A DNA stretch of 64,000 nt from positions 1 to 64,000 of the forward strand of contig NZ_FOES01000011.1 of NCBI RefSeq assembly GCF_900110685.1. The letters are read 5' to 3'. Origin of the DNA: Piscibacillus halophilus. Its GTDB lineage: Bacteria > Bacillota > Bacilli > Bacillales > Alkalibacillaceae. Made by a program: the position numbers and the translations under genes. The notes under the pieces were generated by a model, which saw only the letters and a program-made list of their open reading frames with translations, had not been told where the DNA came from and ran no database searches. Shown here in pieces: positions 32,339-35,198 of the stretch. Numbering within the stretch: the stretch's first letter is position 1; each line of letters opens with the position of its first letter.

Positions 32339-32397
32339 TGTTTAGATTAATTTGGGGGTGGCAATATATCTATATAACCTATTAAGGAGGTATGGAT

Positions 32398-32733
32398 GTG
32401 AGCCACGAAAAATACGCCCAAGTCATACAAGCTTTACACGAATGTATGGAAGCATGTAATCATTGTTACTCAGCATGCCTTCAAGAATCGGACTTAGAGC
32501 AAATGATTGAATGTGTAAGATTAGACCGTGAATGCGCAGACATTTGTTCAAATTTTGAACAAGCTCTAACCCTTGATACTCAGTTCGTAAATGAATACGC
32601 CCAACTTTGCGCTTCTGTTTGCCGTGCTTGTGGTGATGAATGTGCCAAACACGACCATGATCACTGCCAACAATGCGCTGAAGCTTGCCGTAAATGCGCT
32701 AATGAATGTGAAAAATTGATTGAATACGCATAG
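32398..32733 (+). CDS. Four-helix-bundle copper-binding (Csp/DUF326) protein
   Basis: It is a 111-residue Cys-rich protein of the copper-storage type. Cysteines are arranged along helices as CMEACNHCYSAC, CVRLDRECADIC, CASVCRACGDEC and CQQCAEACRKCANEC, about 18 in all, and should line the inside of a four-helix bundle holding many Cu(I) ions. It lacks a Tat signal, so it is the cytosolic form. The start was set at GTG 32398, seven bases after AAGGAGG; the ATG at 32392 is too close to it. A convergent terminator follows. Confidence 0.9.
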   Translation: MSHEKYAQVIQALHECMEACNHCYSACLQESDLEQMIECVRLDRECADICSNFEQALTLDTQFVNEYAQLCASVCRACGDECAKHDHDHCQQCAEACRKCANECEKLIEYA

Positions 32734-32767
32734 AAAGAGCTCCAGTTCTGCACTGGAGCTCTTTCTT
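32732..32767. terminator. Bidirectional terminator
   Basis: AGAAAGAGCTCCAGT / ACTGGAGCTCTTTCT overlaps both convergent stop codons. Confidence 0.88.
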
Positions 32768-32939
32768 AATCTTCCTTCCCTTTAGCACGATCAATCGTAC
32801 CCTCGTGATAACCATCTGAAACCTGCTCATGTGTTTCAGCAAGACCTTCCTCTAATTGAGTGTGTCCCTCATAATCCGAAGGCTCATAATTCTTCTCGGC
32901 TACTTTGTTTTCTTCTTGTTGCTTTTTCTTCTTACTCAT
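32766..32939 (-). CDS. DUF4025 (YozQ-like) small protein
   Basis: This 57-residue protein has a Lys/Gln/Glu-rich start (MSKKKKQQEENKVAEK) followed by NYEPSDYEGHTQLEEGLAET, HEQVSDGYHEGTIDRA, which matches the DUF4025 family of Bacilli. It is hydrophilic with no signal. GGAGG lies 6 bases upstream of the ATG. The function is unknown, and the small size is normal for the family. Confidence 0.82.
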   Translation of the reverse strand: MSKKKKQQEENKVAEKNYEPSDYEGHTQLEEGLAETHEQVSDGYHEGTIDRAKGKED

Positions 32940-32990
32940 ACTCAACCTCCATTCATATTCTTATTATGAACAGATATTGAGTTCATACAC

Positions 32991-33128
32991 CTAGGCTGAG
33001 TTATTAACATTATATTCGATATGCGTTTCCCAATAATAAACCTGCGGTAATCTATAATAAATCCAGTACTCCTTCAACATCGAAGCACCAACAAAAGAGA
33101 CCATTTGCCAGTCAATATGTCTAAGCAT
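32991..33128 (-). CDS. Small aromatic-rich peptide, unknown
   Basis: A 45-residue frame (MLRHIDWQMVSFVGASMLK, then EYWIYYRLPQVYYWETHIEY) is preceded by AAAGGAGAGG. ATG 33128 is preferred over 33134, which abuts the ribosome binding site. It is rich in Tyr and Trp (11 of 45). I do not recognise it. The ribosome binding site and residue make-up support translation; conservation is unknown. Confidence 0.45.
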   Translation of the reverse strand: MLRHIDWQMVSFVGASMLKEYWIYYRLPQVYYWETHIEYNVNNSA

Positions 33129-33176
33129 TCCCATCCTCTCCTTTATAAAGAAATATGTTAGAGAGAGGTTGTCTTA

Positions 33177-33302
33177 TTCAGTATAATCAGCATTTTGTTT
33201 AGTATGAATGGAATTTTATTTAGTATGAAGCTTAAAAAGTTTAGTATGAACTTAAAAAAGTTTAGTATAAGAATTATAAACTTGAGTATAAATCCGAACA
33301 TA
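33177..33302. repeat. Array A: six 21-bp units with core TTTAGTATGAA
   Basis: Six units start at 33177, 33198, 33219, 33240, 33261 and 33282, each exactly 21 bp. The conserved core is TTTAGTATGAA (variants TTCAGTATAAT, TTTAGTATAAG, TTGAGTATAAA), and the remaining 10 bases vary. It lies between a leftward small gene and the LLM oxidoreductase gene. Confidence 0.9.
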
Positions 33303-33381
33303 ACTGATTCTCGTTTCCAAGTCGTTGAAATTAACTTGAATAACAGATTGAGTTATCATAAATTATGGTACCAATTCTAAA

Positions 33382-33549
33382 TTAGAGAATAAATGTAAAT
33401 CAAAAGATAATAAACATTAGAAATTAGATAATAAAATTTTAATTTTGGATAATAAATTTCATGAATTAGATTATAAAGCTCTAATTTTAAATAATAAAAT
33501 CCAAAAAACAGATAATAAATTCTCCAATTTAGATAATAAAACAAAGAAG
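33382..33549. repeat. Array B: eight 21-bp units with core TTAGATAATAAA
   Basis: Eight units start at 33382, 33403, 33424, 33445, 33466, 33487, 33508 and 33529, all exactly 21 bp apart. The core is TTAGATAATAAA with one to three changes per unit, and the other 9 bases vary. The array ends 15 bases before the start codon of the LLM oxidoreductase gene. In one frame it reads as heptads of the type LDNKxxx, but the second unit has an in-frame stop, so coding is doubtful. Confidence 0.9.
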
Positions 33550-33564
33550 GTTGGGATTCTTCAT

Positions 33565-34620
33565 ATGGAACAATATCGTATAGATCCGAACAATGGCCTT
33601 GAATTTGGCTTATATACTTTAGGGGATCACCTACCAGATCCTAATTCAGGTGAACGAATTTCTGCGGAGCAGCGAATTCATGAGATTATTGAATTAGCAA
33701 AACTTGCTGAACAAGCGGGGATTGATTTTTTCAGTGTCGGTGAAAGCCATCAGGATTTCTTTACGACACAGGCTCATACGGTCGTGTTAGCAGCGATTGC
33801 ACAAGCGACGGAAAAGATTAAAATCTCAAGCTCATCTACGATTATTAGCACGCTGGATCCTGTCCGGGCGTATGAAGATTTTGCAACGCTTGATCTGATT
33901 TCAAAAGGCCGTGCTGAAATTGTGGCTGGTCGTGCATCACGTGTTGGAAACTTTGACCTATTAGGCTACAGCTTAAAAGATTACGAAGATCTGTTTGAAG
34001 AAAAATTTGATTTACTCCTTCAAATTAATGAAAACGAAATCGTTAATTGGGAAGGCAAATATCGAGCACCGCTTCGTAATGCCAAAGTTCTACCACGTCC
34101 GAAAAATGGCTCTATGCCGATATGGCGTGCAGTTGGGGGAACACCCGCAAGTGCACGTAAAGCAGGCTATGCTGGTGTTCCGATGTACTTAGCTCATCTA
34201 GGTGGTCCTGCTACCATTTTCAAACGTTCTATTGACGCTTACCGTGATGCCTTAGAAAGCAGAGGGTTTGATCCAGCTGATTTTCCCGTTTCAACTGCAG
34301 GCTTTTTCTATACTGCGGAAACGACCCAACAAGCCCAGCGTGAGACTTATCCTCATATCAATGAAGGAATGAAGCGCACTAACGGCCAAGGCTTTCCAAA
34401 GCAACACTTCGCCCAAGGAGCTGACCCGCGCGATGTGATGAACATCGGTAGCCCGCAAGAGGTCATTGAAAAAATCTTATATCAACATGAACTTTTTGGT
34501 CACCAACGTTATATCGCTCAGATGGATTTTGGTGGAGTGACCTTTGATCGGTTAAAACGAAACATCGATACCATTGGTTCAGAAGTGCTGCCAGCAATTC
34601 GAAAGTATACGAAGAAGTAG
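33565..34620 (+). CDS. LLM class flavin-dependent oxidoreductase
   Basis: It is a luciferase-like (bacterial luciferase-fold) monooxygenase of about 351 residues that probably uses FMNH2 to oxidise a small substrate. Typical blocks are AEQAGIDFFSVGESH, ISSSSTIISTLDPVRAYEDF, GRAEIVAGRASR and PIWRAVGGTPASARKAGYAG. The start MEQYRIDPNN at 33565 matches family N termini. The open frame continues upstream into array B, and the ribosome binding site is poor (AGAAGG, 14 bases away). The FMN reductase gene follows at 11 bases. Confidence 0.87.
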   Translation: MEQYRIDPNNGLEFGLYTLGDHLPDPNSGERISAEQRIHEIIELAKLAEQAGIDFFSVGESHQDFFTTQAHTVVLAAIAQATEKIKISSSSTIISTLDPVRAYEDFATLDLISKGRAEIVAGRASRVGNFDLLGYSLKDYEDLFEEKFDLLLQINENEIVNWEGKYRAPLRNAKVLPRPKNGSMPIWRAVGGTPASARKAGYAGVPMYLAHLGGPATIFKRSIDAYRDALESRGFDPADFPVSTAGFFYTAETTQQAQRETYPHINEGMKRTNGQGFPKQHFAQGADPRDVMNIGSPQEVIEKILYQHELFGHQRYIAQMDFGGVTFDRLKRNIDTIGSEVLPAIRKYTKK

Positions 34621-34631
34621 GAGGATGACAG

Positions 34632-35198
34632 ATGAAAATTGTAGCATTATCAGGCTCACGTGTTGGTTCAAAAACACGAACCGCCATAGACTATACCGTT
34701 CAGGTTCTACAAGACAAGTACCCAGACCACGACGTCACTTTATTGGATTTAGCCGATTATGACATTCAATTTAGTGATGGTCGTAATTACCTTGAATATG
34801 AAGGCGATACCGGCTATGTGACCAAAACGCTTATGGAAGCAGATGCGATTATCATTGGAACGCCTATTTTTCAAGCATCTATTCCGGCAACGTTAAAAAA
34901 CATTTTTGACTTACTTCCGGTAAATGCTTTTCGTGATAAAGTAGTGAGTATGTTAGCAACAGCTGGTTCTCCCAAACATTATTTAATATTAGAAAACCAG
35001 TTAAAACCGATCCTAAGCTATATGAAAGCGCAAATCGTTCAGTCTTATGTCTTTATTGAAGAAGAGGATTTTCAACGAAAAGAAATAATTAACCATGATG
35101 TTCTTTTCCGTTTAGAACGATTAGTAGAAGATACCGTTGTCCTAACTGAAACATACCAACGCATTCGTGATGAAGAGGATGCGAAGTATGATTTTTAA
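34632..35198 (+). CDS. NADPH-dependent FMN reductase
   Basis: It is a 188-residue flavodoxin-fold reductase (SsuE/MsuE-like) that supplies reduced flavin. It has the phosphate loop ALSGSRVGSKTRT at residues 5-17 and IIGTPIFQASIPATLKNIFDLLP at about 75-97. TAGGAGGATGACAG precedes the start, 11 bases after the LLM gene. Together they look like a two-component flavin monooxygenase, perhaps for sulfur compounds. Confidence 0.9.
   Translation: MKIVALSGSRVGSKTRTAIDYTVQVLQDKYPDHDVTLLDLADYDIQFSDGRNYLEYEGDTGYVTKTLMEADAIIIGTPIFQASIPATLKNIFDLLPVNAFRDKVVSMLATAGSPKHYLILENQLKPILSYMKAQIVQSYVFIEEEDFQRKEIINHDVLFRLERLVEDTVVLTETYQRIRDEEDAKYDF

Follow-up and report, generated by a model that had tools for sequence, protein, structure and literature searches.

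Two 21-bp direct-repeat arrays in Piscibacillus halophilus are solo copies of dispersed families linked to NERD genes

Layout of the locus

The window (the whole stretch of 64,000 nucleotides from Piscibacillus halophilus that was analysed) lies on contig C24 of the 2.99-Mb host genome (G000). Two tandem arrays, A and B, sit between a short reverse-strand open reading frame and a luciferase-like monooxygenase gene, which is followed by an FMN-reductase-like gene. The features are:

33177-33302, forward strand: array A, six units of exactly 21 bp, core TTTAGTATGAA with variants
33303-33380, forward strand: gene remnant, 3' tail of a 593-aa gene present in full in the relative G007
33382-33549, forward strand: array B, eight units of exactly 21 bp, core TTAGATAATAAA with variants
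33565-34620, forward strand: luciferase-like monooxygenase gene (best match TIGR03858, 328.8 bits, below the cut-off of 462.25), not part of the system
34632-35198, forward strand: NADPH-dependent FMN reductase-like gene (best match TIGR03566, 98 bits, below cut-off), not part of the system

A first-pass annotation, made from the letters of the window, had described two arrays in which every unit is exactly 21 bp long, and this description is real and exact (six units in A, eight in B); Tandem Repeats Finder likewise reported a period of 21 covering parts of both arrays. The 79-bp stretch noted between them is present, but it is not a plain spacer, as it holds the tail of the gene found whole in G007. 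The remnant is 61% identical to the G007 gene over 36 aa, the match beginning inside the end of array A, and the remainder of the 593-aa gene, which is presumably SgrR-like, is absent from the window locus. A B-type array (L078) likewise lies in G007 between the 593-aa gene and the orthologous monooxygenase gene. In the window, array B ends 15 bp before a start codon and its last unit overlaps the putative ribosome-binding site of the monooxygenase gene.

Two side observations concern the same region. The end of array A meets the start of the gene remnant (33177-33380) as if the end point of a deletion lay at the array, and the open reading frame at 32392-32733 (forward strand) resembles a Csp1-type copper storage protein (TIGR04401, E-value 3.5e-14, 53.3 bits, cut-off 100).

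Unit structure and coding capacity

The 21-bp units of both arrays consist of a core of 11-12 bp and a remainder of 9-10 bp. Base conservation was counted by column in 56 B units taken from seven host arrays; the eighth array (L019) was omitted because one of its spacings is off by one base. Columns 4, 5 and 7-12 carried a single base in 91-100% of the units and column 6 in 86%, columns 13-18 were variable (top base at most 56%) and columns 19-21 were A/T-rich. Of core and spacer, it is the core that carries the conservation, and the conserved columns cover third codon positions too.

The heptads that array B spells in one frame had suggested a remnant of a peptide-repeat gene, and this reading is not supported. 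The heptad frame and the other forward frames are stopped in all seven B arrays (with 1, 7 and 16 stops per forward frame in the window array), and third codon positions are conserved. On the reverse strand, five of the seven have one open frame, but in the other two, L020 and L021, all frames of both strands are interrupted. One forward frame is open in window array A.

An RNA element appears less likely, with no Rfam match at threshold in positions 32700-33700 (one sub-threshold match, RF02596, 23.9 bits against a gathering score of 35.7). Three of the eight copies of array A (L084, L085 and L086) begin at the T-run of a forward terminator-like hairpin, four of the 18 B-type arrays described below (L019, L020, L075 and L082) are antisense to both flanking genes, and the W and S columns preceding the core accept A/T and G/C freely in some species. 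Taken together, these observations suit double-stranded DNA better than RNA. CRISPR arrays have repeats of about 23 bp or more and longer unrelated spacers; a CRISPR array was rejected here, the whole unit (core of 11-12 bp and remainder of 9-10 bp) being 21 bp.

Dispersed copies in the host and near relatives

In searches for the two cores at 21-bp spacing, the B family was found at eight host loci, of which seven hold 7-9 units and L019 holds six clear ones. The A family was found at eight places on seven host contigs with 4-7 units each, and B-type arrays were found in relatives as well. In the host genome a two-unit A pattern with at most three mismatches gave 22 matches, against 0 for the reversed control; the B pattern gave 59 against 15 with at most three mismatches and 53 against 2 with at most two. 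The A copies L084, L085 and L086 have their spacers in common as well as their cores (read by eye) and therefore look like copies of one another. Since both families are dispersed, local slippage alone is rejected as the origin of the window arrays, and B-type arrays also stand at the same gene end in another genus, both at a NERD gene (L021 and L074) and before the monooxygenase gene (window and L078).

The genomic setting was recorded for 18 B-type arrays, eight from the host, four from G003, five from G007 and one from G001; L081 was left out, as no four-unit array was found there. A gene 3' end lies within 177 bp of every one of the 18, with 14 arrays running in that gene's direction. Twelve face a convergent gene and none lies between divergent genes. 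Terminator-like hairpins were found within 45 bp of 10 of 16 host arrays, compared with a fraction of 0.148 for random 150-bp places in the window, coding sequence included.

The copies are unevenly distributed between close relatives. The B pattern matched twice in G001, a genome of the host's genus, against 53 times in the host, and G001 keeps one B-type array (L083). At the jag-mnmE site a B array is present in the host and was not seen in the 17 relatives among the 18 genomes compared; it is probably a lineage-specific gain. The same site in G003 carries another 21-bp motif (read by eye).

NERD genes at the borders of the arrays

Each of the two families has a NERD gene in the same chromosome with the same array at its border:

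L021:5160-6182, reverse strand: NERD-B gene on contig C43, with a B array directly at its stop codon
L085:2771-3772, forward strand: NERD-A gene on contig C51, with A arrays on both sides

The window arrays, in a window within which no NERD gene was found, are solo dispersed copies of two NERD-linked 21-bp direct-repeat families. This link to NERD genes is the main result and lay beyond the reach of the first-pass annotation. It also accounts for the two cores being unrelated, which the annotation had rightly stated, as A and B are two distinct families, each with a NERD gene of its own. A B array stands at the NERD stop codon in G003 too (L074), and in two genera the NERD-B gene has iron-transport and TPR genes on either side. 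Six NERD genes are present in the host, and the NERD family is multi-copy: within the bacterial family, 19 of 21 genomes gave matches, with up to eight in each.

The flanks of NERD genes were matched against themselves at 24 lags, using 79 distinct loci of 82 after the duplicates L225, L260 and L262 had been dropped. The best lag was 21 bp at 53 loci, 20 bp at 18 and some other value at eight. A score of at least 38/63 was reached at lag 21 by 45 loci and at lag 20 by 13, with some loci reaching both, and at each other lag by 0-2 of the 82. As controls, none of 60 overlapping 2-kb chunks of the window, arrays left out, reached this score, and one of 18 jag loci from the same bacterial family did, that one being a B array. 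Any binomial value for this test overstates the case because paralogs are not independent.

The NERD protein

All five partner proteins matched the Pfam model PF08378 (NERD) with 62.3-72.7 bits against a gathering score of 22.1, and no other Pfam family scored above its cut-off in these five. Six residues (E58, D90, E103, K105, Q137 and Q141) are invariant in 14 aligned paralogs, and we assume that these E, D, ExK and Q residues belong to a PD-(D/E)XK nuclease motif; the four Cys of a zinc ribbon are conserved in the same 14 proteins. An AlphaFold2 model of the Filobacillus NERD protein, built from a three-sequence input, was of moderate quality (pLDDT 63.7). Its residues 47-189 aligned with PD-(D/E)XK enzymes, best with Cdn1 and Can2, and residues of about 230-330 with winged-helix proteins (Z at most 7.7). 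The best fold match had a Z-score of up to 7.7 over 111 residues with an rmsd of 2.9, all matches lying below Z 8, and the best Foldseek hit had an E-value of 4e-3, with nothing at 0.001 or better. These results support, but do not prove, a protein composed of a candidate PD-(D/E)XK nuclease domain, a zinc ribbon and a winged-helix-like C-terminus.

Arrays in other genomes

A three-unit B pattern matched 35 stretches in named genomes, most of them such arrays in Bacillaceae and some of them coding repeats or stretches from distant organisms. Array carriers include Filobacillus milosensis, [Bacillus] enclensis, Rossellomorea aquimaris, R. marisflavi, Neobacillus notoginsengisoli, Ectobacillus panaciterrae and Alkalihalobacterium chitinilyticum. 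With looser patterns, matches were obtained in 59 of the 397 genomes that represent the order and in 53 of the 398 that represent the class, some of these matches being background or coding. Core variants specific to single species occur on the same period (GACAATAAA, GCTAATAAA, CGTGGAATAAA, TTCGAGAATAAA and CCGGTAATAAA), and whole-block duplication expands the arrays of G323, G049 and G709.

Several candidates were set aside. The pattern matches in Fictibacillus, Peribacillus and Omnitrophota were judged by eye to be coding, and the 21-bp repeats of G189, G077, G550, G450 and G412 are coding as well, lying inside open frames of 464-475 aa. The latter (L129-L131, L138 and L191) form a protein family with the heptad NSxNKxx, the DNA of which mimics non-coding arrays at the same 21-bp period.

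Some further observations are recorded here in their own right. The Verrucomicrobia bin-4024, from another phylum, has long 21-bp arrays with GATAATAAAA-like cores (L121 and L124), and a NERD match was absent from the two 8-kb loci examined in it. Two array types are adjacent in two distantly related genomes, at L060 and L068 of G047 and at 33177-33549 of the window. The genome G725, which is without a NERD match, has 21-bp units of ATAGAGCGAATAAA at L192; this array is crossed by two open frames of 89 and 157 codons and may be coding.

Association of cores with NERD genes

NERD genes were found in 25 of 26 array genomes compared with 10 of 26 chosen controls (Fisher's exact test, 1.3e-5). In the class sample they were found in 11 of 13 genomes with AATAAA-type arrays compared with 55 of 385 others (7e-8), where an array genome was defined by at least three matches and more than twice the number in the reversed control, a threshold that drops G104, G128, G189, G077, G670, G686 and others. 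The NERD search of this sample scored at most five candidates per genome and left 312 genomes without a match, and the NERD and array samples (398 genomes each) were judged to be the same from the listed genome handles. The two exceptions among the 13 are G550, the repeats of which are coding and which was still counted, and G725. Genomes with NERD genes and without AATAAA-type arrays need not be exceptions, because that pattern does not catch other cores.

The dispersed core of a genome adjoins one of its NERD genes in G458, G323, G047, G049, G384, G168, G089 and G709, and in G133 two NERD flanks (L270 and L269) carry cores like the dispersed ones. Each NERD paralog has its own core. Cores were compared for 64 of the 79 NERD loci, from 41 genomes, after 15 loci without a peak of at least 36 had been dropped; the comparison used automatic consensus strings and is rough. 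The 17 NERD pairs with at least 55% identity had a mean core score of 4.59 against 1.09 overall, a value reached in 0 of 5000 shuffles, and the ten such pairs between genomes scored 3.3 (37 of 5000 shuffles). The three pairs above 70% identity scored only 1.33, and in the orthologous trio L021, L195 and L196 the G001 orthologue of NERD-B has another core. That the core follows the protein at all distances is not supported (Mantel r 0.06 over 64 protein-array pairs, 528 of 5000 shuffles being as high). As close pairs are alike in core while distant pairs and the three closest are not, specificity appears to turn over quickly. A period of 20 versus 21 bp is not supported as a clade trait, with 14 changes on the NERD tree against 14.4 in shuffles.

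Comparison with known systems

RAYT genes are flanked by their own repeats, and these repeats lie mostly at gene 3' ends. REP/REPIN sequences are described as short extragenic repeats of which a genome holds several families, each close to a gene of its own (PMC3116915). The arrays share with REP/RAYT a gene next to its own repeat family together with dispersed copies (families A and B in the host, and eight further genomes). They differ in being direct 20-21 bp repeats with cores that are not self-complementary, whereas REPs are palindromic or inverted pairs, and in having as partner a NERD protein of the PD-(D/E)XK type instead of a tyrosine (HUH) transposase. Two defining features of REP/RAYT, the palindrome and the HUH transposase, thus failed, and the arrays were therefore not filed under that system.

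Plasmid iterons and the ParR/TubR centromere arrays consist of direct repeats, about 20-22 bp long, that adjoin the gene for the protein binding them. Unlike these, the NERD arrays are chromosomal, with many dispersed copies and several families per genome, and the partner is nuclease-like and not a replication initiator or partition protein. Plasmid iterons were rejected on the grounds that the adjoining gene is a NERD gene in the cases examined and that the A and B families occur on several chromosome contigs. Tn7-like ends carry arrays of binding sites of about 22 bp and involve the PD-(D/E)XK enzyme TnsA; where arrays flank a NERD gene on both sides, in contrast, they have the same orientation and are not inverted. 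The NERD domain itself is common to the proteins of PF08378, including SmdA, BREX PglW and the MADS6 kinases, and the array-linked subgroup differs by its added zinc ribbon and winged-helix-like C-terminus and by its tie to repeat arrays.

Proposed model and alternatives

Of the readings offered by the first-pass annotation, the helix-phased binding platform is the one that would fit, judging from the sequences: the cores are conserved and the spacers variable, the period of 20-21 bp is kept while the core changes, and the partner gene looks like that of a DNA-binding nuclease. We propose that each NERD protein recognises its own core through its C-terminal part, with one protein per 21 bp (two helical turns), which would align the proteins on one face of the DNA. 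The A/T and G/C freedom before the core would point to minor-groove contact beside major-groove reading of the core. More speculatively, the nuclease may act at or near the arrays and promote their copying to new places, copies might survive where they are harmless, at gene 3' ends and beside terminators, and the solo arrays of the window might be non-autonomous offspring of NERD-linked arrays. A REP/RAYT-like spread would be the likeliest dynamic. We give this model as a whole, that is solo arrays of NERD-keyed families with cognate recognition and nuclease-promoted spread, a probability of about 0.62.

An unlikely alternative is that the system serves the architecture of the host chromosome, the NERD proteins being structural or repair factors and the arrays selected anchors spread by ordinary duplication, with roles in nucleoid organisation or as roadblocks to forks or transcription at gene ends. 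It would agree with cores that are conserved while spacers drift, with the retention of an array at the corresponding end of the NERD gene in two genera (L021 and L074), with the position of all 18 B-type arrays at gene 3' ends, 14 in the gene's direction, and with the hairpins near 10 of 16 host arrays. Orientation was counted relative to dnaA, the pole opposite dnaA standing for the terminus, and isolated matches regarded as background were removed by eye. All 15 loci of G458 (L159-L173) and, in G323 (L175-L181), all nine loci of one core point from dnaA to the opposite pole, which again would favour anchors; one G323 locus of another core is oriented opposite. Elsewhere, however, orientation is mixed. 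Three cores of G133 follow this direction at 3 of 4, 4 of 5 and 1 of 5 loci, G090 does so at 3 of 5, and neither of the two host arrays near dnaA runs in the origin-to-far-pole direction; this polarity is not claimed as a general rule. Arrays that are few per genome and as uneven between close relatives as in G001 and the host also speak against chromosomal anchors, and several private families per chromosome together with an intact-looking nuclease site would be odd for them.

We regard as improbable an immune or self-marking role, in which DNA would be attacked by the NERD nucleases and the arrays would serve as self marks, as decoys or as stop sites for the enzyme. NERD domains do occur in defence proteins, and the NERD proteins studied here have weak matches below cut-off to BREX PglW, MADS6 and MkoA; a NERD nuclease is placed in a rare defence system (PMC12458937), and fast change of specificity would suit a conflict. 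On the other hand, the chromosomal setting of the NERD-B gene, flanked by iron-transport and TPR genes, is conserved in two genera and is not visibly a defence island, and with one NERD protein as query no close plasmid match was found (none at 1e-15).

That the NERD proteins are transcription factors and the arrays their operators is very doubtful: the best array lies upstream of the NERD gene in 31 of 64 cases, compatible with autoregulation, and the window B array stops just short of a start codon, yet the best array is downstream in the other 33, and the dispersed B-type arrays, 12 of 18 of which face a convergent gene, are never found between divergent genes. An indirect link, with NERD genes merely sitting where tandem repeats gather, has as little to recommend it, for although several repeat blocks are frequently present in NERD flanks and such blocks grow by duplication, lags 20 and 21 were the only ones of the 24 to be raised, not the other 22, and the same cores are found again at distant places of the genome.

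Implications

NERD genes are paired with arrays of changing core in numerous relatives of Bacillus, a pairing that points to a protein-DNA system not recognised before. In the parts available to us of the open-access literature, including PMC4057527, PMC12802215, PMC9040797 and PMC12458937 and a search with GATAATAAA as query, no link of NERD to arrays and no described NERD protein with a DNA partner was found, and a 2022 paper states that, to its authors' knowledge, the role of NERD in bacteria had never been studied (PMC9040797). Sequence or palindrome searches would miss this repeat class, since it has no constants other than the period of 20-21 bp and the gene next to it.

We would give even odds to a widespread class in the Bacilli in which a chromosome carries several NERD nucleases and each of them is matched to a 20-21 bp direct-repeat array of its own under a fast-changing code. 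If this is true, a REP/RAYT-like system would have been invented independently with a PD-(D/E)XK nuclease, and nature would hold a collection of evolved DNA-binding specificities. The multi-copy NERD subgroup is now paired with a concrete candidate for its DNA partner, and from the paired protein and DNA sequences the recognition code could be learned.
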